Below, in pieces: positions 20,698 to 51,102 of a DNA stretch of 64,000 nucleotides; within the stretch, counting starts at the first letter, position 1, and each line of letters opens with the position of its first letter. Under the pieces are notes generated by a model that worked only from the letters and a program-made list of their open reading frames with translations, was not told the origin of the DNA and made no database searches. Where the stretch lies: assembly GCF_000214375.1 (NCBI RefSeq), contig NC_015578.1:1364001-1428000 (forward strand), written 5' to 3'. The translations under genes and the position numbers were made by a program. This stretch comes from Treponema primitia ZAS-2. GTDB taxonomy: Bacteria; Spirochaetota; Spirochaetia; Treponematales; Breznakiellaceae.

Positions 20698-23600
20698 ATG
20701 AAAAACATACGAAAGACGATGCAAACAGTATCCCTGTTGAGCGCCCTGGCGGCGGCCCTGCTCCTGGGTTCCTGCGCCAATCCCTTTGCGCCTGACAAGC
20801 CTAATCCGGAGTATAAGCCATCTCCGGATACGACGATTCCCCAGGGATACGGCCGCCTGCTTGTCAGTCTGGGCCTTGAGGAGCCGGCGGAGCTCGCGGT
20901 TGCGCAGCAGGAGGCGCCCGAGGCGGCGTTACAAGCCGCGCGGACCCTGATACCCGGCGCTTTTACCCGGTATGAAGTCACCTTCACCAATAAAGATGAT
21001 CCCCCCGTGGTGGTTACCAAAACCTGGACGACGCCAACGGGGAATGTGGTGGACCTGATACCCGGAACCTGGACCATCGCCGTGACGGCCTATGCCGGGA
21101 CCGGGACCGGGGCGGTGGCATCGGGGACGGGGCAGCTTACCAATGTAGCCGTGACCGCCGCCGCCGCCGCGGAGATTAGCATTCCCCTGAGTATGAAGGC
21201 GGGAGGCTCGGGGACCCTGAGCTATACCATCACCTTTCCGGGAACCCTGAGCAGCTATACAACAAGGAAGCTGACCATATACAACGATAACGGGGAGCCC
21301 ATTTCTTCCCTGCCTGCGGAAAACCCCAGCACTACCAACCCCATCACCTTTACCACTTCCCCGGCAACGGGGACAGTGTCGCTGAATGCGGGGGGCTATT
21401 ACCTGGTGGCGGAACTGGAGAATAGCCAGGGCCGCTTTGCCCGGTGGACCACGGCGTTCCATATTTATAACGGCCAGACCACTCCTGCGGCGCATAGCTT
21501 TGGAGATGGCGATTTTGAAGAGTCTATTCCGGTTTCCGGGACCGCTACGCTTACCGTCGGGATGGGCATCACCCTGAGCGAAGTAACGGTAAGCGCCTAT
21601 GGCACCGCAGCCTGTGATGGGCTGCCCGTTGCCGGTCCGGTGGCGCTTGCTTCGGTTACGACCGGTGGTACCTATACCCTGTTTATCCCCAACAGATATG
21701 CCGCAGTCTGGCTGCGCCTGGGGGCGAAGGATAGCGCCGATCAGCCGGTGTCCGGGGCCGAGGCGTCAGTGACGGAGGTTCCCATTAACGAGGATCCGGT
21801 CACCCAGAACCTCAGCGCCGGTATCTATGCCATTACTCCTTATGCTGCCGACGGAGGCAAGGTTACCGCACCCTCCGCAGCCTTTAAGGGCAGCACGGTG
21901 GCGGTTACGGTAAGCCCGGCGCCAGGGTATTTCCAGAGCGGGAAATCGCAGTATACGGACAGCGCCAGCATTACGATGTCTTTTGATGGCGGGACCTTTA
22001 CGATGCCCGCTCTGAACGTAACCCTGAGCGCCAATTTTGCGCTCATCGCCACTGGCGGCGAGACTGATGTAGCCATCGTGAACAACGTGGGCTATGACAA
22101 CCTGAACGCTGCCTTTGCGGCAGTACCGGCTGGGACCGGGACCGCAGCAAGCCCTGTGGTGATCACGGTGCTGAAGAGTACCGTCACCGTCACCGAGACT
22201 ATCACGGTCGACGGCGGGCGGTATGTGCAACTGGTCGGGGCAGGTTACACAACGGCTACCATCACTTTTAATGAAAACACCTTTCTGGAGGTGAAAGCCG
22301 GGGCGGGGCTGATACTGGGGGACGGCACTTTACCGATTGCCCTGGACGGCGACGCGAGATGGACCAACTTTGACACGGGGGAGCACGCCGGCGTTTCCCG
22401 GGGAGGCGCCCTGGTACGGACCGCAGGGGCCTTCACCATTAAAGGTTCCGCCCGGGTGCAGAATAACTATGGGGGAACAACCGGCGAAGGCGGGGGCGTG
22501 TACGTGGCGGAGGCAACCGGAAACCTGGTAGTTGACGGAGGCGCCATCGAAAACAACTGGGCGTCCAAAGGCGGCGGGGTGTATCTGTCCGGCGCCGGCG
22601 CAGATCTGACCGTAACTCAGTATGGAAGCATCAGCGGCAATGCGGCGGAGACCGGCGGCGGGGTGTATCTGTCCGGCGCCGGCGCAGCCCTGACCGTAAC
22701 TCAGTATGGAAGCATCAGCGGCAATGCGGCGGAGACCGGCGGCGGGGTATATGCTGCCGGAGGGAACAGCACCCTACAAGACGGCGGCTCCGTGGAGGGG
22801 AACCTTGCCCAGGACGGCGGCGGGGTGTACCTGGTGGCAGTGGAAACCGGGATAGGGCCCCGCCTGAACATCAGGGTCGGCGGCGCGGTAAAGGCCAACC
22901 AGGCGAGCCGCAACGGCGGCGGCGTCTATGTAGGCAAAAAGGCCAACCTGACCATGACCGAGACCAGCGTCATTGGGAACAGCCCCACTGAGACCGATGC
23001 GGGCAATAGCGCGACGGTAGGGGGGGGCGGCCTCTATCTGGCAGTGGACGCCACGGCAAGCCTGGAAGGGAAAGCCCGGATTACCGGGAACACCGCCCCG
23101 ACCGGCAAAGGCCCGGATGCGGCCCTTGCGGCGACCCTGAATCTGAACGGCGGCGCCCTGGTGAGCGATGCGTACCTTATCAACGCTACCGGAGCCATCG
23201 GGGTTCCAGGCATCCTAACCGCGACTGTCTCGGCGAAGATTACCCCCCATGACTACGACCGCAATCAGCCGGTGCTGACCGGCGTCAATGTTGCGGCCAA
23301 CTATACCAGGTTTACCCTGGCAAATCCAACCGCAGACGGAAATAACTATATGATTAGACGCACCGGGTCCCTGGTGAACGCAAGGTACACCCGATACCGG
23401 AATGCCACTACCGTGGACTATTACACGACCCTGGGGGATTTGCTGTACGATGATGGTTTCCCATCCGAGAGCAGCAGCGAAGACCCTCCCGATGAGATCC
23501 GGATAGCATCCGGGACGAGCTCCATAACCCTTGGTGCGGGTGAAGGTTTCACCATACCCGCCGGCGTCCACGTTAAGCTGGTACCGCCGTCAGAGGGCTT

Positions 23601-25701
23601 CACCATCAGCCGAAACGCCGCTTCAAGCACCCCGGTGTTTACCGTGAACACCGGCACTTCCCTGGCCATCGGAGGAACGACGTACGCCCTTACCCTGGAC
23701 GGGGGCTCTTCCACCCATACAAGCCCATTGGTACAAGTGAACGGCGGGACCTTCACCATGGGGAACATTGCAACGCTGAAGAATAACAAACGCTCAGGCG
23801 ATGGCGGCGCGGTCTCTGTCGCAAGCGGGACCTTCACCATGAGCGGGGGAACCATTGGCGGGACATCGTCGACCAAGAACACGGCGACTTACGGCGGCGC
23901 GGTCTCTGTCTCCTCAGGAGGGTCCTTCACCATGAGCGGAGGGAGCATCACCGGAAATACCGCAACGGCTAACGGCGGCGCGGTCTCTGTCTCAGGCGGG
24001 ACCTTCACCCTGAGCGGGGGGACGATCACCGCGAATACGGCAACGGCTAACGGCGGCGCGGTCTCTGTCACAGCCGGGTTATTCACCCTGAGCGGGGGAA
24101 CCATTGGCGGGTCATCGTCGGACAAGAACACGGCGACTTACGGCGGCGGAGTGTATGTGTCCAGCAGTGGGGAGTTCAAACTAAGCACCGGAACCATCAG
24201 CTACAATACTGCTACTTACGGCGGCGGGGTCTCCGTCTCAGGCGGGTCCTTCACCCTGAGCGGGGGGACGATCACCGCGAATACGGCAACGGCTAACGGC
24301 GGCGGGGTCTCCGTCTCAGGCGGGTCCTTCACCCTGAACACCCCGAGCTCCCAGGTCAGCATCACCGCTAATAGCGCGGACAATGGCGGCGCGGTCTCTG
24401 TCACAGGCGGGACCTTCGCCCTGAACGGAGGAATCATTGGCGGGTCATCGTCGAACAGGAACACGGCGGTTAACGGCGGCGGGGTGTATGTGTACGGCGG
24501 GGCGTTCAATCTAACCTCCGGAAGCATCAGCTACAATACTGCTACGACTAACGGCGGCGGGGTGTATATGAACATCTCCAATCCCTTAACCCTGAGCAAC
24601 GGAAGCATCCACGACAATACTGCTACTAACGGCGGCGGGGTGTATAAAACCGGTAGCGGGACCTTCACCATGAATGGGGGTACATTATCCATCACCAACA
24701 ATACCGCCACCGGCAGCGAGACCAATGGCGGCGGGGTGTATGTGGCCAACGGGAAGTTCGAACTAATCGCCGGAAGTATCGGCGGCAATACTGCTACTAA
24801 CGGCGGCGGGGTCTCTGTGGCCAGCGAAGGGACCTTCACCATGACTGGGGGAACCATTGGCTCGACGAGGAACACGGCGACTGACAAAGGCGGCGGGGTA
24901 TACGCCCGCGGGCCCTTCACTATGAGCGCCGGAACCATCAGCTCCAATACTGCTAAAGACGGCGGCGGGGTATACGCCACCACCTCGCCCTTCACTATGA
25001 GCAACACGGCGAGCATCAGCAGCAATACTGCTACTAACGACGGCGGCGGGGTGTATGCGAGTAACTTCACCCTAAACGCCGGAACTATCAGCAACAATAC
25101 TGCTACTAACAACGGCGGCGGCGTGTTCAAAGCCGGGTACGATACTTTCACCATGAATGGTGGAACCATTGGCGGGTCGTCATCGTCGGCCAATAACACG
25201 GCGGCTATGGGCGCCGGGGTGTATGTGGACGCAGCGGAGTTCGAACTAAAAGCCGGAACCATCAGCTACAATACTGCTACGACTCGCGGCGGCGGGGTGT
25301 ATGTGAAGACCTTTGCGACCCTCACTATGAGCGGGAGCGGGGGAACCATCAGCAACAATTCCGTCAGCGGCATTGGATCTGGCGGCGGGGTGTTTGTGGA
25401 CGCCAGTGCGACCTTCACTATGAGCGCAGGAGCCATCAGCAACAATGCCATGACCCACACCTCTGTCGGGCCGTGCTATGGCGGCGGGGTGGCCGTTACT
25501 GGCATTTTCTACATGTCGGGTGGAACCATTTCCAACAACACTAACAGCAGCATCACGGGTTTGGGTAACAACTTGTTTAAGGGCCCGGACGCTATAGCAA
25601 TGTACGGCACCGCAGATACCCCCAGCAGTACCTGGATCGCAGGCTCTTCAGGTAATGCTGGTTACACGAACGACACGTTACCCGTACCCGGGGCCTTGTG
25701 A
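20698..25701 (+). CDS. Beta-helix repeat lipoprotein (unit B1)
   Basis: A 1667-aa predicted lipoprotein with a signal peptide ending LLLGSC (Cys about 26). The N-terminal 550 residues hold beta domains (GTWTIAVTAYAG and similar). Two blocks of short repeats follow, roughly residues 590-800 and 1020-1610, built on GGGVYV ... FTMSGGTISxNTAT. This pattern is typical of right-handed parallel beta-helices and of the chlamydial Pmp-type repeats. No autotransporter barrel ends the protein, so it is tethered by lipid. Residues about 625-680 contain an 84-base duplication (22570 and 22654). It follows A1 by 14 bases and is probably co-transcribed. Confidence 0.78.
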   Translation: MKNIRKTMQTVSLLSALAAALLLGSCANPFAPDKPNPEYKPSPDTTIPQGYGRLLVSLGLEEPAELAVAQQEAPEAALQAARTLIPGAFTRYEVTFTNKDDPPVVVTKTWTTPTGNVVDLIPGTWTIAVTAYAGTGTGAVASGTGQLTNVAVTAAAAAEISIPLSMKAGGSGTLSYTITFPGTLSSYTTRKLTIYNDNGEPISSLPAENPSTTNPITFTTSPATGTVSLNAGGYYLVAELENSQGRFARWTTAFHIYNGQTTPAAHSFGDGDFEESIPVSGTATLTVGMGITLSEVTVSAYGTAACDGLPVAGPVALASVTTGGTYTLFIPNRYAAVWLRLGAKDSADQPVSGAEASVTEVPINEDPVTQNLSAGIYAITPYAADGGKVTAPSAAFKGSTVAVTVSPAPGYFQSGKSQYTDSASITMSFDGGTFTMPALNVTLSANFALIATGGETDVAIVNNVGYDNLNAAFAAVPAGTGTAASPVVITVLKSTVTVTETITVDGGRYVQLVGAGYTTATITFNENTFLEVKAGAGLILGDGTLPIALDGDARWTNFDTGEHAGVSRGGALVRTAGAFTIKGSARVQNNYGGTTGEGGGVYVAEATGNLVVDGGAIENNWASKGGGVYLSGAGADLTVTQYGSISGNAAETGGGVYLSGAGAALTVTQYGSISGNAAETGGGVYAAGGNSTLQDGGSVEGNLAQDGGGVYLVAVETGIGPRLNIRVGGAVKANQASRNGGGVYVGKKANLTMTETSVIGNSPTETDAGNSATVGGGGLYLAVDATASLEGKARITGNTAPTGKGPDAALAATLNLNGGALVSDAYLINATGAIGVPGILTATVSAKITPHDYDRNQPVLTGVNVAANYTRFTLANPTADGNNYMIRRTGSLVNARYTRYRNATTVDYYTTLGDLLYDDGFPSESSSEDPPDEIRIASGTSSITLGAGEGFTIPAGVHVKLVPPSEGFTISRNAASSTPVFTVNTGTSLAIGGTTYALTLDGGSSTHTSPLVQVNGGTFTMGNIATLKNNKRSGDGGAVSVASGTFTMSGGTIGGTSSTKNTATYGGAVSVSSGGSFTMSGGSITGNTATANGGAVSVSGGTFTLSGGTITANTATANGGAVSVTAGLFTLSGGTIGGSSSDKNTATYGGGVYVSSSGEFKLSTGTISYNTATYGGGVSVSGGSFTLSGGTITANTATANGGGVSVSGGSFTLNTPSSQVSITANSADNGGAVSVTGGTFALNGGIIGGSSSNRNTAVNGGGVYVYGGAFNLTSGSISYNTATTNGGGVYMNISNPLTLSNGSIHDNTATNGGGVYKTGSGTFTMNGGTLSITNNTATGSETNGGGVYVANGKFELIAGSIGGNTATNGGGVSVASEGTFTMTGGTIGSTRNTATDKGGGVYARGPFTMSAGTISSNTAKDGGGVYATTSPFTMSNTASISSNTATNDGGGVYASNFTLNAGTISNNTATNNGGGVFKAGYDTFTMNGGTIGGSSSSANNTAAMGAGVYVDAAEFELKAGTISYNTATTRGGGVYVKTFATLTMSGSGGTISNNSVSGIGSGGGVFVDASATFTMSAGAISNNAMTHTSVGPCYGGGVAVTGIFYMSGGTISNNTNSSITGLGNNLFKGPDAIAMYGTADTPSSTWIAGSSGNAGYTNDTLPVPGAL
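22570..22737 (+). repeat. 84-bp tandem duplication within B1
   Basis: Two adjacent 84-bp units (22570-22653 and 22654-22737) encode the same 28 residues. They differ only at two adjacent bases, which change Asp to Ala. The near identity points to a recent in-frame duplication of one coil of the helix. Confidence 0.85.
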
Positions 25702-29219: not shown

Positions 29220-32200
29220 ATGAACATATACGGGAAAAACGGTACTAAAATAGCAATCGTGTTGGCAGCCTTGCTGGCAGCGGGCCTCATCCTGGGCTCC
29301 TGCGCCAACGCCCTGGGCCCGGAAAACACGCCCGTCCTGGAATCTGCAACCCAGTTTCCCGCGCAGGGGATGGGGCGGCTGCAAATCTCCCTGGAACTTC
29401 CCTCTGATACGGATCTCCCGTCCCGGACGATCTTCCCCGAAAACCAGTTTACCAGGTATGAGCTGTCCTTTGCGGAAACCGGCGGACCCGGCGCCTATAC
29501 CCATGGGGATGAAGAATTGACCAGCGCAAGGGCCTCCGTGGACCTGCCCCCGGGAACCTGGACCATCACGGTGAAAGCCTATGCAGGCGCTGAGAGGGAC
29601 ATCCTCTCCGGAACCGGAACTGCCACAAACGTGGTGGTGAGCGCCGGCTCCGCAGCATCGGCGCCAATCACCCTTGGCAGGTATACTGAAAGCGCTGTAA
29701 GCGGCAAACTCAGTTGGAACATCACCTTACCTTCCGGCGGAACCTATGCGGATAATACCCTTACGGCGCTTGCTAAAGACGGGAATAATCTTACTGCGGG
29801 CCTTTTTGCGGATCCGATTAACCTGAGCGATCAATCCTCGTTGCTGGATTTGGACGGGAAGGAAATTGCGCCGGGGGAATACCTGGTGAAGCTGAGCATA
29901 AAAAGCGCCGCCGGGCCGGTCGCAACCTGGCTGGAGAGCGTCCATATTTATCCCGGACAGACCACCCACATCAGCCCGATTTTTAGCGCGGAGGCTTTCA
30001 GCGTCCAGGTTCCCGTGTATGGAGTGGTTACTAGTACCGGCAGCCTCAGCTTTACTTCAAAGACCGTGGAGGCTTTTAGCGAAGCCGACTATACGGCCCG
30101 CAATTTTAACGCCCCCCTCGATGTCAGCGTCGTTGACGCCCAAGGTTACGTCCTGTTTATTCCCGCAACGGTTCCCAAGGTGTACCTGCGCCTAACGGCT
30201 CTGGTGGATAGTAAGATCATCTACAAAGTGTACCCGGATGCGCTTCTCGTGGGCGCCGCCGCCGGCCCGAGAAACAAGCCCTTGCCCGCGGCGGCCTATG
30301 GCATTACCACGAACACCCCCGAGAATGGAACCATTACGGCCCCCTCCGCAGCCTTTGAGGGCGAACCGGTTGCCGTGACGGTAGAGCCGGACCCCAATTA
30401 TTTGTTGCAAGGGGGGTCCCTGACGTACAACTCAACCGCATTCACCGATACCTTCACCATGCCCGGCGAGGCCATAACCATAACGGCGACCTTCCTGTCA
30501 AGCTCCGGCATGGCGGCATCAGTGAACGGCGCCGCCTATGACACCCTGAGCAAAGCCTTTGACGCCGTGAACCGGGCGGAAACCGGCAGCCTCCTGGCGG
30601 GAACCCAGAGCAAGCCCGTGGTAATCACCCTGTTGAAGAACGCGGACATAGGCGCCGCAGCCAACTGCATAACCCTTGACACGGGCAGGTATGTCCAGCT
30701 GATCAGCAACAACAGCAGCGGGCTTACCATCAAACTGACCACCAACGATGTAGGCTCCATCTTCACCGTGGCGACCGGCGCCGGCCTCACCCTGGGGGAC
30801 GGGATCAACCCCCTCACCCTGGACGGCGGCGCGGCATCCACCCCCATCTGCACCAACACTGACGCCCTGGTAACGGTGACCGGTTCCCTGACCATCAAGG
30901 CCGGGGCCATCGTGCAGAACAATAGGAACACAACCGCGACCACCTCAGCTTACGGCGGCGGCGTGCGGGTAAACGGAACCGGGACCATGCTCCTGGAAGG
31001 AACCATCAAGCAGAACAGCAGCGATAGTGGCGGCGGCATCTACCTGGATGCGGGCAGCGCCCTGACCATCCAGGGCAGCGCCCAGGTGTTCTCCAACAAC
31101 GAAGTATATCTTGCCGCCACAAGCGCAAAGATAAGCATGGGGGATAGCCTTACCCAGGCCGCCGTGGCGGTGATTAAACCCGCCGTATATGCCGACTGGG
31201 AGACGACGCCGCTGATCACCGGCGATGTGAACTTGTTCGCGGACCACTACACCCAGTTTACGGTGAGCCCCGAGCCCAGCCACAACTGGAAGATAAGCCC
31301 CAATGCCACCCCGGTGGGCGCCCTGATGGACGCCCAGTTCATCGTTACCTACAATACCCGGTTGATAGGCTACTACAAAACCCTCGCCACTGCGCTGAGC
31401 GGCATCACCGCCGCCGGCTCTGCAGGCAGCATAAACGAACCCATTATCATCACCATGTATACGAATACCAGTCTTGCCAGCGACGGTGACGCTATGACAA
31501 TCAGCGGGGATTCCTTTATTCAACTGATTCCCGGCAACCAGGATGGCGTCACCATCAGTCGGGCATACAGTTCGTCAACTAAACCGGTCTTTACGGTGGC
31601 TGCCGGCTCCCGGTTAACCCTGGGGGTGGATGGGGGAACCATCCCCCTGATCATAGACGGCACGTCAAAGACCACCACGGCCGCATTGATTGGGGTGGTG
31701 GGAACCCTGATCATGAACGGGGGAACCATCAGAGGCAATACTGGCTCCACCACCGCCAACGGCGGCGGGGTGTATATGACCAACGGGACCTTCACCATGA
31801 ACGGGGGAACTATCTCCGGCAATAGATTCAACAACGGCGGCGGGGTGTATATGACCAGCGGGACCTTCACCATGAACGGGGGAACCATCACCGACAATAG
31901 CTCCAACAGTAAAGGCGGCGGTGTGTATGTGGCCGGCGGGATCTTCACCATGACTGGGGGAATCATCAGCGGCAATCGCTCCAGCAGCGACGGCGGCGGG
32001 GTGTATGTGGACGGCGGGACCTTCACCATGGGCGTGGGAGGGGAAACTATCACCGGCAACACCGCCTACAAGGGCGGCGGCGGGGTGTATGTGACCGGCG
32101 ATAAGACCTTCACCATGAACGGGGGAACCATCACCGTCAACAACGGCTCCGACGGCGGCGGGGTGTATGCGAGTACGGACTTCGCCATGAACGGGGGAAT

Positions 32201-32744
32201 TATCACCGCCAACGATGGCGTCAGCGGCGGCGGAGTGTATACGAGCAAGAGCTTCACCTTGAATACGGGAGCCATCACCGGCAACAACGGCTTCGACGGC
32301 GCCGGGGTGTATGTGAACGCCGGGGACTTCAACATAAAAGGGGGAACCATCAACCGCAATAGAGCAGACAACAACGGCGGCGGGGTGTATATGAGCGGAG
32401 GGAACTCCGAAATGAGATTGGGAGAAATCCGCGACAATACCTGCAACAACGACGGCGGCGGGGTGTTTATTAGTTACGGTGCACGCTTCAGCATGGTCAC
32501 TGGAACCTTCAACCGCAATAGAGCAGGCAACGACGGCGGCGGGGTGTATGTGGCCGGCGTGTTCGCCTGGGATGTTGGGCAGGGAAGCGGAACCATTGCT
32601 GCCGACCAGATTGCCGGCCGTTTTGGCAAAGTCATGTATAAGACTCAATACGGTACGGCAAAGTATTCACAGGTCTTAGATATCCCACTCGAAGGCATAA
32701 ACACCCCTGACAAGTATAGGGACTTCGTGCTGCCGCCGGTATAA
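29220..32744 (+). CDS. Beta-helix repeat lipoprotein (unit B2)
   Basis: A 1174-aa predicted lipoprotein with a signal peptide ending LILGSC (Cys about 28). It has the same layout as B1: N-terminal beta domains, a conserved EFEGEPVAV-like segment, then GGGVYMTNGTFTMNGGTISG repeats from about 835 to 1110. The repeat signature here is mostly FTMNGGTI, against FTLSGGTI in B1, so the arrays have expanded separately. There is no C-terminal barrel. With A2 it forms the second copy of the two-gene unit. A role in surface binding is inferred. Confidence 0.77.
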   Translation: MNIYGKNGTKIAIVLAALLAAGLILGSCANALGPENTPVLESATQFPAQGMGRLQISLELPSDTDLPSRTIFPENQFTRYELSFAETGGPGAYTHGDEELTSARASVDLPPGTWTITVKAYAGAERDILSGTGTATNVVVSAGSAASAPITLGRYTESAVSGKLSWNITLPSGGTYADNTLTALAKDGNNLTAGLFADPINLSDQSSLLDLDGKEIAPGEYLVKLSIKSAAGPVATWLESVHIYPGQTTHISPIFSAEAFSVQVPVYGVVTSTGSLSFTSKTVEAFSEADYTARNFNAPLDVSVVDAQGYVLFIPATVPKVYLRLTALVDSKIIYKVYPDALLVGAAAGPRNKPLPAAAYGITTNTPENGTITAPSAAFEGEPVAVTVEPDPNYLLQGGSLTYNSTAFTDTFTMPGEAITITATFLSSSGMAASVNGAAYDTLSKAFDAVNRAETGSLLAGTQSKPVVITLLKNADIGAAANCITLDTGRYVQLISNNSSGLTIKLTTNDVGSIFTVATGAGLTLGDGINPLTLDGGAASTPICTNTDALVTVTGSLTIKAGAIVQNNRNTTATTSAYGGGVRVNGTGTMLLEGTIKQNSSDSGGGIYLDAGSALTIQGSAQVFSNNEVYLAATSAKISMGDSLTQAAVAVIKPAVYADWETTPLITGDVNLFADHYTQFTVSPEPSHNWKISPNATPVGALMDAQFIVTYNTRLIGYYKTLATALSGITAAGSAGSINEPIIITMYTNTSLASDGDAMTISGDSFIQLIPGNQDGVTISRAYSSSTKPVFTVAAGSRLTLGVDGGTIPLIIDGTSKTTTAALIGVVGTLIMNGGTIRGNTGSTTANGGGVYMTNGTFTMNGGTISGNRFNNGGGVYMTSGTFTMNGGTITDNSSNSKGGGVYVAGGIFTMTGGIISGNRSSSDGGGVYVDGGTFTMGVGGETITGNTAYKGGGGVYVTGDKTFTMNGGTITVNNGSDGGGVYASTDFAMNGGIITANDGVSGGGVYTSKSFTLNTGAITGNNGFDGAGVYVNAGDFNIKGGTINRNRADNNGGGVYMSGGNSEMRLGEIRDNTCNNDGGGVFISYGARFSMVTGTFNRNRAGNDGGGVYVAGVFAWDVGQGSGTIAADQIAGRFGKVMYKTQYGTAKYSQVLDIPLEGINTPDKYRDFVLPPV

Positions 32745-47355: not shown

Positions 47356-47466
47356 GGGAGCTTAAGTTACCTAGCGAACCAGGTATTCCATACCATTGAA
47401 CACAGCAATCACTTTAGGTCTCTATATGGAAATATAGGCAGGGGAGGGCGGGCGGTTCCCTGCCAT
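47356..47466 (+). repeat. Truncated copy of the structured repeat element (E1')
   Basis: The first 80 bases match the head of E1 (47472 onward) closely, including TTACCTAGCGAACCAGGTATT. After GGGGAGGGCGGGCGG it jumps to TTCCCTGCC, which is core sequence of E1, and then ends. GGCAGGG (47437-47443) and CCCTGCC (47458-47464) form a small hairpin. It looks like an internally deleted, directly repeated copy. Confidence 0.7.
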
Positions 47467-47471
47467 CTTCC

Positions 47472-47727
47472 GGGAGCTTAGGTTACCTAGCGAACCAGGT
47501 ATTTCATACCATTGAATACAGCAACCATTTTAAGTCTCTATATGGGACAGAGGCAGGGGAGGGAGGGCAAGTCATGCCTCCCCCGTCTCTGGAATTCCCT
47601 GCCGGAGGAGACCGCGTAAAAGAATGTTGCGGGCTCCGTAGGCAGACTCCACAGGTTAGGGGGAGGCGTGACTTGCCCTCCCTCCCCGGTCACTACCCCA
47701 ATACAGCCATCATAAACTGAAAAATTG
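47472..47727 (+). repeat. Structured repeat element E1 (candidate ncRNA)
   Basis: Head region 47472-47555; 29-bp stem of 47556-47584 with 47659-47687 (28 Watson-Crick pairs and one G-U); core 47585-47658; tail to 47727. The core has GTCTxTGGAATTCC on the left and ACTCxACAyGTTA on the right. Inner stems are CTGCC/GGCAG and GAG/CTC with CCGC/GCGG. The head, core and tail recur in E2 (50873-51102); the core recurs in E3 (50515-50675, minus strand). It lies 82 bases upstream of the DksA-like gene in the same direction. Confidence 0.8.
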
Positions 47728-47809
47728 CTGCATATCAAAAAAAAGCTATTGACAAAAATCTCAATAAACGGCAATGTACCCCAATTAAATAATCTAATAG
47801 GGGGGGTAT

Positions 47810-48166
47810 ATGGACCAAGAATTCGTTACACGCATGGATAAATCCCTAACCGCGCTCAAGACGGAAATTGTCTCCAACCTCATAGCCAGTAATGAGGATT
47901 TTAAGGAAATCGTTGAGGGTATGGACCCCAAGGATCTGGCGGATATCGCTTCCGATGATATCGATCGTAAGATGATTGAAGCCATAGGTTCCCAGGAATT
48001 GAAGCGCCTGAAACTGATCGATTCCGCCTTGACCAGGATTCAGCAGGGTAAATACGGGCTCTGCGTAAAGTGTGGTAAACGTATACCCCAGGATCGCCTG
48101 GAAGCCATTCCCTACGCCCTGATGTGCATCGAATGTAAAACTGCGGAAGAACGGAGAAACAGGTAA
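47810..48166 (+). CDS. DksA/TraR-type zinc-finger protein
   Basis: A 118-aa protein. A coiled, acidic N-terminal part (about 1-75) is followed by a C4 zinc finger, GLCVKCGKRIPQDRLEAIPYA with MCIEC, the C-x2-C-x17-C-x2-C pattern of DksA/TraR. Such proteins enter the RNA polymerase secondary channel and modulate stringent promoters. The acidic tip of E. coli DksA is not obvious here, so the degree of functional match is uncertain. A run of G residues serves as ribosome-binding site. Confidence 0.85.
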   Translation: MDQEFVTRMDKSLTALKTEIVSNLIASNEDFKEIVEGMDPKDLADIASDDIDRKMIEAIGSQELKRLKLIDSALTRIQQGKYGLCVKCGKRIPQDRLEAIPYALMCIECKTAEERRNR

Positions 48167-48190
48167 CATTAAGGGAAGATTAAACTTCCC

Positions 48191-49069
48191 TTATTCCTGT
48201 CCTATTATTTCCTCACTCCAAACCGTTTTTCCGTCTTTTTTGCCCTCAAAAAAGGCTGTTTTTGTATACCCTGCCTGGGCCAGTATTTCCTGGGCCAGGC
48301 CATAGTAGCCCCCCAGGTGTTCCGGGGCATGGGCGTCTGCAGTGATGATCACCGGGACATTTTGCAGGCGGAGCAGTCCCAGCAGTTCCGGAGAAGGGTA
48401 GGGTTCCCGGGTGCTACCCCGATTAAGGCCTCCGGTGTTTAGTTCCGTTACGGCCCCGCTTTTGCCTACCGAAACCGCAATGTCCCTGATCCGCCGCTTA
48501 TAGGCTTCGCTTTCCGGGGAGAACCATTCCCGGTTGGGGTTGTTCTTTTTTACCAGGTCCAGATGGCCCAGGATATCGAAACCCCCGGCGGCGATCATCC
48601 CTTTCAGAGAGTCCCAGTAGGCCTCTATCAGGGCTGCCCCGTCCCCGTCAAAATGCCGTTTTATATCTGCCTCAAATTCTTCCCTTGGGCTGTCCACGGT
48701 AAAGGGTTCCCCGCCCTTTGGGGGGAAGACATAGTGTACCGACCCGATGATGTAATCCAGGCCCAGTTCCTGGAAATCCCTATCCGCCGGGCCGGAGAGG
48801 CCCTTGATATAGTCCACCTCCAGGCCCAGGTAGACCGGCAATTTCCCCGCCCATCGGCGGCGGGCGGCGTGTACCGCATCGATGTATTCGTTCAGCCTTT
48901 CGTCCGGGAGATGCCAGTCAGTTTTGAGCCCCGTTTTTTTTGCAATAGGGGCATGGGAACTGAAGCCTATAGCCGCAAGCCCCTTTTCCCATGCCGCCCG
49001 GCAAAAGGATTCAATTTCCCCCTTTCCGTCACAAAAGTCCGAATGGGTATGGAGGCAGGTATAGCGCAT
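48191..49069 (-). CDS. hisJ: PHP-family histidinol-phosphatase-like protein
   Basis: A 292-aa PHP-domain phosphoesterase of the HisJ family. HTHSDFCDGKG at the N-terminus supplies the first metal ligands. GFSSHAPIAKK, the LGLEVDYIKG glutamate, IIGSVHYVF, DILGHLDLVKK and the late ITADAHAPEHLG contribute the remaining ligands in the standard order. HisJ removes phosphate from histidinol phosphate in histidine synthesis. No other his gene is nearby. It follows the regulator gene by 8 bases and is probably co-transcribed with it. Confidence 0.85.
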   Translation of the reverse strand: MRYTCLHTHSDFCDGKGEIESFCRAAWEKGLAAIGFSSHAPIAKKTGLKTDWHLPDERLNEYIDAVHAARRRWAGKLPVYLGLEVDYIKGLSGPADRDFQELGLDYIIGSVHYVFPPKGGEPFTVDSPREEFEADIKRHFDGDGAALIEAYWDSLKGMIAAGGFDILGHLDLVKKNNPNREWFSPESEAYKRRIRDIAVSVGKSGAVTELNTGGLNRGSTREPYPSPELLGLLRLQNVPVIITADAHAPEHLGGYYGLAQEILAQAGYTKTAFFEGKKDGKTVWSEEIIGQE

Positions 49070-49077
49070 AGGTTTTC

Positions 49078-50436
49078 CTAAAAAGTAGTTTTGAGGATTT
49101 CTACGGTTTTTTTGAAGATATCCTCGGGATTCATGGGTTTGATGAGATAGCTTTTAACACCCATCTGGAAGGCTTTGACCACCATTTCCCGTTTGCTCAG
49201 GGCGGAAAGGACCACCACCGGGGTCTGGTAATTACGTTCCTGAAGAGCCTGGAGTACCGCAAATCCGTCCATTTCAGGCATCAGGATGTCCAAAAAAACC
49301 AGATCGTATTGATTGATATTCGGGCTTTTGAGGAATTCCGCCCCCCTTGAAAAGGTTTTTACCGGGACCCCTACGGACTGGAAGGCGTTTTTGATCAGCT
49401 CCTGCATGATGGGTTCGTCATCCACCGCAGCAATTTTAAGGTTTTTGATTGCCCTGGTCAGGGCCTCCGGGGACAGCCGCTTCCGGGCATCCATATCAAA
49501 CTGGAACTGCATGGACCCGGGCTTTGGGTTTTCCATGGCAAGCAGGGAATCGTCCAAATCATCCAGGTCCCCCGCTTCCTCCAACAGCTCAAGCTCATCA
49601 CCCCCGGCGAGCCCCTCTACTTCCCCCACCGTGGCCGTGGCGATGGCTGGGGCCGGCTCCTGAGCTGCCGGGCCGGGCTTTTCCTTTCCCATCAGAGCAT
49701 CCGTGGCTTCCTGAAGGCTGGAAACCAGGTTGAATACGACGTATTCCGCTTGCCCTGCGATAAATTTCTTTACCCTATCATCATTGGTCAGGATCAGAAG
49801 AAGCTTGTGTTTTCCCTTGGAAACCTTGAGTAGTAAGTTCAGCAGTTTTTCTAATTTGTGGATCTCCGTGCCATGGAGATCGAGGTCATGGAGCATAAGG
49901 ATGATCTTCAGGAATTTGATTTCATATAACTCTATCAATTCCCTGACTTTGAAAAAGAGCAGGTCCAGCTTGTCCGCGTTAAGTCCCTGGGCCAGCTCGA
50001 CAAAGATTATATTATCGTTTACATGGACATCCACAATGCTGGGGCTTTCATCAATTTCAAATTTAATTCCCAGGATATCCTTGAGTGTTTTGAAAAGTAT
50101 ATCGACCTTAATGGGCTTGGTAAAAACCTTTTGTACCCCGTAGGGAACCAGTGCAAAGAGCTTTTGCTGGTCGATTTTCTGGGCTACCATGATCACCGGA
50201 ACCTTGGCAGTGTTAGGATTGAGTTTCTTTTCCTTTAGAACATCCATATAGGTTTGTTCACCCAGGGGATAATCAAGGATAATCAGGTCCGGATACCCGA
50301 GCCGCATTTTGGACACCCCTTCCTGGCTGTTGCCGGCGGTATCCACATCCAGATCCAGCTCATTCTCTGCGAGTTTTGTTACAAGATATTCCCTGAACAG
50401 GGGCGATTCGTCAATAATAAGGATAGTTTTCTTCAT
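49078..50436 (-). CDS. Double receiver-domain response regulator
   Basis: A 452-aa protein with no DNA-binding domain. Receiver 1 (about 1-120) has ILIIDESP, LIILDYPLG with the phospho-acceptor Asp, and FTKPI. The middle (about 135-260) resembles a STAS-like fold (IIFVELAQGL, then FLKIILMLHDLDLHG) followed by an acidic linker. Receiver 2 (about 330-452) has AAVDDEP, VFLDILMPEMDG and LIKPM. Both receivers keep the acidic pocket, the Asp and the Lys, so both could be phosphorylated. The ATG at 50436 is preferred over one three codons upstream. The partner kinase is not in the window. Confidence 0.82.
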   Translation of the reverse strand: MKKTILIIDESPLFREYLVTKLAENELDLDVDTAGNSQEGVSKMRLGYPDLIILDYPLGEQTYMDVLKEKKLNPNTAKVPVIMVAQKIDQQKLFALVPYGVQKVFTKPIKVDILFKTLKDILGIKFEIDESPSIVDVHVNDNIIFVELAQGLNADKLDLLFFKVRELIELYEIKFLKIILMLHDLDLHGTEIHKLEKLLNLLLKVSKGKHKLLLILTNDDRVKKFIAGQAEYVVFNLVSSLQEATDALMGKEKPGPAAQEPAPAIATATVGEVEGLAGGDELELLEEAGDLDDLDDSLLAMENPKPGSMQFQFDMDARKRLSPEALTRAIKNLKIAAVDDEPIMQELIKNAFQSVGVPVKTFSRGAEFLKSPNINQYDLVFLDILMPEMDGFAVLQALQERNYQTPVVVLSALSKREMVVKAFQMGVKSYLIKPMNPEDIFKKTVEILKTTF

Positions 50437-50514
50437 GGCTCCCAATTCTTATGCTGAGAAGATTCTAGTTAATTATAGTTGAAAACGATGATTTTTGCTA
50501 TACTCTTTTAAGGG

Positions 50515-50675
50515 CTGTAGTTTTCAGTTTGACTAATGGTGGCGCTTATTCTCCGGGAGGGGTGGGGATGCCCCTGGGGCTAACATGTTGAGTCCGCCTC
50601 CGTCAGCCCGCTACGCGGTCTGCTACGGCGGGGAATTCCATAGACGCCCCAGGGGTATCCCCACCCCTCCCGGAG
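50515..50675 (-). repeat. Structured repeat element E3 (candidate ncRNA, reverse orientation)
   Basis: A 30-bp stem of 50551-50580 with 50646-50675 (one non-Watson-Crick position) encloses a 65-base core. Read on the minus strand the core is CGTCTATGGAATTCC, CCGCC, GTAG, CAGACCGCG, GCGGGCTG, GGCGG, ACTCAACATGTTAG. It shares all invariant motifs with E1 and E2, but its arm sequence is unrelated. The tail toward 50515 keeps the AAACTGAAAA motif of E1. It lies upstream of the regulator gene in the same orientation. Confidence 0.78.
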
Positions 50676-50681
50676 CCTTGT

Positions 50682-50872
50682 GTCAATATTGGGGAAACGG
50701 GATTCTGCCGCCTAAGTGTATGGCAAGGGTTTGGGAAGGCATTAGCCTCTGGGGACATAGGCCAACATGGGGAAATAGGGATTCCGCCGCCTAAGCGTAT
50801 GGCACGGCGACATAGGCCAACATGGGGAAACAGGGATTCCGCCGCCTAAGCGTATGGCACGGCGACAGAGGT
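50682..50872 (+). repeat. 55-bp tandem hairpin repeats
   Basis: Two nearly identical 55-base units start at 50763 and 50818. A diverged, longer unit precedes them (50682-50762), and a fourth diverged unit forms the start of E2 (50873 on). Each unit contains CGCCGCC ... GGCACGGCG, which can fold into a hairpin, and GGGATTCCGCC. The units resemble the head of E1 (GAACCAGGTATT...), so they are probably amplified head modules. Confidence 0.75.
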
Positions 50873-51102
50873 CAACATTGGGAAACAAGTATTCCGTACC
50901 GCTGTGTATAGCAACGTTTTAAGGTTAATATACAGGGATAGAGGCAGGGGCGGGCGGGCGATTCGCTTCTCCCCCGTCTTTGGAATTCCCTGCTGGAGGA
51001 GACCTACTGGGCTCCGCAAGCAGACTCTACAAGTTAGGGGGAGGGGCGAATCGCCCGCCCGCCCCGGGCAGTAACCCAGTACAGCTATCATAAACAGAGA
51101 AT
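50873..51102 (+). repeat. Structured repeat element E2 (candidate ncRNA)
   Basis: A 29-bp stem of 50947-50975 with 51037-51065 (27 Watson-Crick and two G-U pairs) encloses a 61-base core. The core motifs are GTCTTTGGAATTCC, CTGCT/AGCAG, GAG/CTC and ACTCTACAAGTTA. Compared with E1, eight stem positions differ; five are two-sided compensatory changes and three swap G-C with G-U. The tail is close to E1. Only about 20 bases separate its end from the DJ-1/PfpI start codon. Confidence 0.8.

Follow-up and report, generated by a model that had tools for sequence, protein, structure and literature searches.

Three copies of a long hairpin in the termite-gut-type spirochaete Treponema primitia, found within the 64,000-nucleotide stretch of DNA analysed here (the window; positions 1,364,001–1,428,000 of a single-contig genome of 4,059,867 bp), raise the question of what keeps a changing stem paired around a conserved core: a structured RNA, a folded single-stranded DNA, or the behaviour of a mobile palindrome. 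A sequence-only reading had described the three, E1 to E3, as sharing one architecture, and all were found in place. E1 (47472–47727, plus strand; G000:C1:1411585) comprised a left flank, a 29-bp variable stem (left arm 47556–47584, right arm 47659–47687, both plus strand), a conserved core at 47585–47658 on the same strand (GTCTCTGGAATTCC..GGAG hairpin..GACTCCACAGGTTA) and a right flank. Beside it, at 47356–47470 (plus strand), part of the left flank was duplicated in tandem, together with a truncated arm piece and lacking the core (family D3). E3 (50551–50675, minus strand) had a 30-bp stem (50675–50646/50580–50551), Watson–Crick in 29 of 30 pairs, around a core at 50645–50581. E2 (50935–51102, plus strand) had a 29-bp stem (50947–50975/51037–51065), a core at 50976–51036 and a right flank. 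The unstranded spacer between the divergent E3 and E2 (50676–50934) held 55-bp tandem units, two of them clear and others diverged (50751–50915); spacers of other copy pairs contained degenerate or tandem units too. Elsewhere in the window, long tandem repeats of 72–84 bp (22570–25052 and 31757–32403) looked coding and perhaps belong to repeat-rich surface proteins.

Between E1 and E2, the earlier count of eight stem differences was matched: five were two-sided Watson–Crick swaps and three involved G·T (TG to CG, GC to TG and CG to TG, the middle one altering both letters). Relative to shuffled sequence, E1 folded with z-scores of −11.5 (RNA) and −10.3 (DNA). The hairpin could be described in seven layers. 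The outermost is a stem of 20 to more than 60 bp, different in sequence in nearly every copy, followed by a loop closed by an invariant T·G wobble, which was kept in all members of a set of 30 copies from many genera. Next come a 3-bp stem, xTG/CAy, in which x–y is C–G, T–A or A–T, and an internal loop with GAATTC on the left and (A/G)(C/T)TCTA on the right. The fifth layer is a 5-bp stem (CCGCC/GGCGG, CTGCC/GGCAG, CTGCT/AGCAG, TCCCC/GGGGA and others) and the sixth a loop of GNAG facing CGNA or ACGNA, compatible with two sheared G·A pairs around one mismatch. The structure ends in a tip hairpin that varies and often has a C-GNA-G cap. The covariation that had been read from E1–E3 held in these copies for the x/y position (C–G, T–A, A–T), the second stem (CTGCC/GGCAG, CTGCT/AGCAG, CCGCC/GGCGG) and the third (GAG/CTC and CAG/CTG, with A facing G). 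The near-invariance claimed for the unpaired motifs stood for their inner part; the GTCT left loop and the GTTA right loop beside the long stem differed among genera. Across genera, the near-invariant part was TGGAATTC...(A/G)(C/T)TCTACA together with the T·G wobble, and core conservation was also read from the A5 pair counts. Some copies carried an extra hairpin inserted at the core. At L019 and L023 one arm was replaced by a run of about 20–50 G (or C), which may be a hot spot of slippage, and at L182 (about 590–1410; G147:C132) an apparent group II intron lacking an ORF was seen by eye within one copy's hairpin. The stretch TGGAATTCC...GCGAAGGCGG resembles helices 22–23 of 16S rRNA; pairing and spacing differ, and the likeness was treated as chance.

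The three copies belong to a dispersed family. About 45 full copies were recovered from the 4.06-Mb genome by searching first for the left motif and then for both; 39 of them served to build a covariance model, which gave 55 matches, fragments and reverse readings included. The sequence-only observation was correct but covered only a small part of the family, and it had not foreseen a dispersed, mobile repeat. All copies in this genome were within or adjoining intergenic stretches. They shared a left flank of about 80–100 bp, and the right flank ended about 60–80 bp past the core. Close copy pairs were always divergent (10 of 10, minus then plus, 190–450 bp apart; for example 940684/941012 and 1414580/1414977 on G000:C1), as were the pairs in genome G012. 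The last 0.89 Mb of the chromosome (G000:C1:3,170,000–4,059,867) contained zero full copies, with the approximately 45 spread over the remainder.

Whether pairing itself is selected was examined in 39 copies of this genome. The 20 inner pairs of the long stem were 97% paired, and 19 of them had two-sided changes. Paired cells amounted to 95.8%, against 67.8% in shuffles, and the covariation score was 0.734, against a shuffled mean of 0.198; none of 500 shuffles reached either observed value. Pairing fell to 37–58% when the partner was shifted along. The left arms were only about 50% identical among copies (core: 84%), and an arm was 92% Watson–Crick complementary to its own partner and 50% to other partners. 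Two-sided changes were also present in four of the five inner-stem pairs in these 39 copies, and in all five, with 100% of cells paired, in the 30 copies from many genera. In the long stem of this genome, G·T/T·G occurred in 45 cells and A·C/C·A in 3 (binomial p 1e-10), a count in which not all cells are independent events and which strand-biased deamination could raise; G·T was present in 16 of the 20 columns. In other genomes, where the arms are longer, the counts were 195 and 91, and G·A/G·G mismatches exceeded C·T/C·C. Since a G·T on one strand is an A·C on the other, symmetric mutation or self-templated conversion of a palindrome would give equal counts; the excess of G·T therefore indicates that folding is selected on the strand that reads GTCTxTGGAATTC. 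The earlier suggestion that base pairing is under selection, with internal loops conserved, is supported, and pairing is selected on one strand only.

This asymmetry bears on a passive account of the repeat. Bacterial miniature inverted-repeat transposable elements (MITEs) are usually viewed as passive leftovers of insertion sequences, and the arms could in principle be kept complementary by template switching within the hairpin of such a palindrome, around a core of no function. Long palindromes do self-convert, and arms that diverge strongly among copies (about 50% identity) and yet stay paired are what this would produce. We nevertheless consider it very improbable, as conversion is strand-symmetric and the G·T to A·C ratio was 15 to 1, the core is kept across genera in elements with different ends, and the second stem within the core covaries too.

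A covariance-model search of spirochaete genomes, which the sequence-only reading had proposed, placed the element in one family. The core model R2 matched 45 of 200 genomes of this family, in 17 of 57 genera and in a patchy manner; among 393 genomes spread over the phylum, its matches were solely in members of the same family. Two relatives carried 31–34 copies each. A scan of 84,980 species with a narrow pattern recovered only Treponema, Spirochaetaceae MAGs and Spirochaetia bacterium MS502-68. The repeat family is both dispersed and patchy, with a core that is conserved over 17 genera while the arms and ends change. That no named family matches, as had been stated before, was borne out by Rfam, in which no family scored above its gathering score, and a literature search found no paper on the repeat. 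An origin from phages or plasmids was rejected, because phage and plasmid sequences gave zero matches to the element and IMG/VR only chance matches to the pattern.

The ends of the element in relatives point to its means of movement. In G025 (MAG Roe453), Gsp477 and others, it was bounded by CTAAACTTGACCC...GGGTCAAGTTTAG; the CTAAACTTGACCC ends gave 84–110 matches in two genomes, against 0 when the pattern was reversed. In relatives, 7 of 25 testable copies lay between 9-bp direct repeats, compared with 0 of 600 cross-copy controls; these duplications were CTCCCCGAT, GTTCAGAAT, CCCTTACTT, CCGCTTGCG, CCCTAGGCT and two with one mismatch. In G015, a 1,469-bp insertion sequence with the same ends as the element encoded a Tn5-like transposase of 479 aa (NF033590, IS4 family, E 1e-101; Pfam Tnp_DNA_bind and Dimer_Tnp_Tn5). 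The hairpin ends in G025, G147, G135, G159, G070 and Gsp477 matched those of the insertion sequence at L190, and G070, G153, G114, G005 and G096 had one such end near truncated transposase genes. A Tn5-like transposase of the IS4 type very probably moves the element in trans in these relatives. The hairpin was not found in G015, which has the intact insertion sequence, and the core was absent from the Tn5-like IS4 insertion sequences. Palindromes of 46–58 bp with CTAAACTTGACCC ends and without the core were also present (L186 1002–1047, L187 255–308 and 3526–3572, L188 1404–1460, L189 754–811), with no target duplication seen by eye.

The same core occurred with different ends in other genomes, and the copies of T. 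primitia had ends that were worn and different from the IS4-type ones. Target duplications were looked for around the copies of this genome and none was found, nor was a Tn5-like DNA-binding domain found in it, so these copies are probably older or were mobilised by another enzyme. When an autonomous element was searched for with their right-end motif, it matched mostly beside known copies and in few places elsewhere. The sequence-only reading had held that residence in a known transposable element would count against novelty. In relatives the whole hairpin does lie inside a short transposon, which makes the carrier less novel; the transposon does not account for the core, which is absent from the insertion sequence.

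The reading had left open whether the folded strand is a structured RNA or single-stranded DNA. The evidence leans slightly towards DNA. Relative to flanking codirectional genes, 28 copies had the same and 26 the opposite orientation; a function in read-through transcripts has thus left no mark, and a 5'-leader element, to which the sense orientation of E1, E2 and E3 upstream of a gene might point, was rejected because orientation is even genome-wide. Sampled GC skew put the origin close to position 1 and the terminus at about 2.2 Mb, and by this sampled skew the folded strand was the lagging-strand template in 18 of 25 unpaired copies, a weak bias (p 0.04). Of 106 distinct tip loops, 44 were C/T-GNA-G/A triloops, one was GNRA and none UNCG. 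In DNA, GNA loops are described as having extraordinary stability (Hirao 1994 and Yoshizawa 1997, as cited in PMC11101458), and the hairpins of Streptomyces telomeres are GNA-capped (PMC7205883). The GNA triloops, the lack of a gene-orientation bias and the lagging-strand bias weakly favour single-stranded DNA over RNA; the invariant T·G (U·G) wobble and the sheared G·A loops would suit RNA equally.

An RNA carried by the transposons, made from an unseen promoter or by read-through transcription and serving in protein binding or in the regulation of transcription or RNA stability, is an alternative that we think rather unlikely. It would account for selection on one strand with G·U tolerated and A·C excluded, for the invariant U·G wobble, and for a strong RNA fold with conserved internal loops. 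It fits less well with the even orientation (28 versus 26), the near absence of GNRA and the absence of UNCG loops, and the lack of a matching family in Rfam; in addition, copies with intact 9-bp duplications have about 64 bp before the core, in which inspection by eye recognised no promoter. A recombination site that is folded, single-stranded and similar to the attC sites of integrons, served by an IntI/XerA-like tyrosine recombinase, appears improbable. The element shares with attC (PMC3053210) an architecture in which the arms vary, unpaired bases are conserved and a single strand is active. A 395-aa tyrosine recombinase of T. primitia (L282 2220–3407; G000:C1:2031219–2032403) is extended at its N terminus and close to XerA and IntI4; among solved structures, its best relative is that of the integron integrase IntI4 (2a3v). 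It was enriched in genomes with the element (27 of 45, against 44 of 155 others; Fisher p 1.7e-4, uncorrected for phylogeny and genome completeness), and remained so when the largest genus was approximately cut out (p 0.003, likewise uncorrected). Against this stand its presence in those 44 element-free genomes, its not being found in element-rich genomes such as G097, and the fact that no element copy adjoins its gene; it falls below the integron integrase cut-off, which 0 of 26 genomes exceeded (TIGR02249). Complementary GTTRRRY/RYYYAAC core sites were absent from the hairpin base, where GTTAGGG/GTTAGCC face an uncomplementary CGTCT and vary among genera. The 9-bp duplications and terminal repeats, moreover, indicate a DDE transposase. 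With its defining sites and integrase absent, an integron attC proper was rejected.

A REP element moved by a RAYT is scarcely credible. The GTAG tag defines REPs (PMC3733652, PMC2817692), a GTAG or GGAG precedes the imperfect hairpin within the core, and this genome has three Y1_Tnp genes. The three RAYT-like genes are, however, flanked by other repeats (GGTGNCNGNCACC, GAGCTCTGTCCC) and none by the element, Y1_Tnp was not found in G021, G023, G025 and G031 (66–86% complete, two with more than 30 copies), GNAG is one side of an internal loop that is symmetric, and there are target duplications; this origin is largely refuted. The RAYT-like genes (L038, L039 and L040) were themselves seen amid other short palindromes (GGTGCCTGGCACC, GGTGACTGTCACC) and repeats (GAGCTCTGTCCC).

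We favour, with about an even chance of its being right, an explanation in which E1–E3 are MITE-like mobile copies, each a long hairpin with the core at its tip, and in which the strand under selection works chiefly as single-stranded DNA in its folded form. It would be exposed in the lagging-strand template at replication; the long arms would extrude and juxtapose the ends of the element, and the arms, needing only complementarity, would drift in pairs. The core at the tip would be a putative site recognised by a protein in trans, and IS4-type enzymes would transpose the element in trans. The IntI/XerA-like recombinase of this genome may be a partner, to which the link is statistical only. 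A role of the core as DNA is not explained by a DDE transposase, because such an enzyme acts on double-stranded ends and needs no folded strand. More tentatively, and as a possibility rather than an expectation, the core may be a folded single-stranded DNA module that resides in unrelated short transposons of host-associated treponemes, one strand of which is read by a protein in trans while arms and ends swap freely: a portable mobility or host-interaction site, and not attC, REP or a known family. Over 17 genera, arms and ends have been exchanged around a core of about 50–60 bases that has persisted with its own conserved internal loops. If confirmed, this core would add to attC and REP a new class of site that works as folded single-stranded DNA, or else be a new RNA that transposons have spread. 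Hundreds of natural arm variants make its structure testable at once, and the case illustrates that strong covariation in a repeat need not indicate a classical regulatory RNA.

Among known systems, the hairpins of Streptomyces telomeres are single-stranded DNA with the same GNA caps, whereas the element is chromosome-internal and part of a mobile repeat. With integron attC it has in common an imperfect hairpin, variable arms, conserved unpaired bases and one strand that matters; it differs in having no attC core sites, no cassette array and no integrase above the curated cut-off. Like REPs and REPINs with their RAYTs, it forms dispersed intergenic palindromes and inverted pairs, with GTAG/GGAG before a hairpin, but it is much longer, its REP-like part is internal and it has no RAYT association. 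To the MITEs of Tn5/IS50-type IS4 elements it is similar, in relatives, in being short and geneless, in having ends in common with an autonomous IS4-family element, and in its 9-bp target duplications and many intergenic copies. Unlike these, its arms co-vary copy by copy, the copies of T. primitia have other ends and no duplications found, and its core is conserved across genera and lacking from the insertion sequence. The element is real and unusual: its carrier is a novel MITE variant, and the core it carries is without known counterpart.
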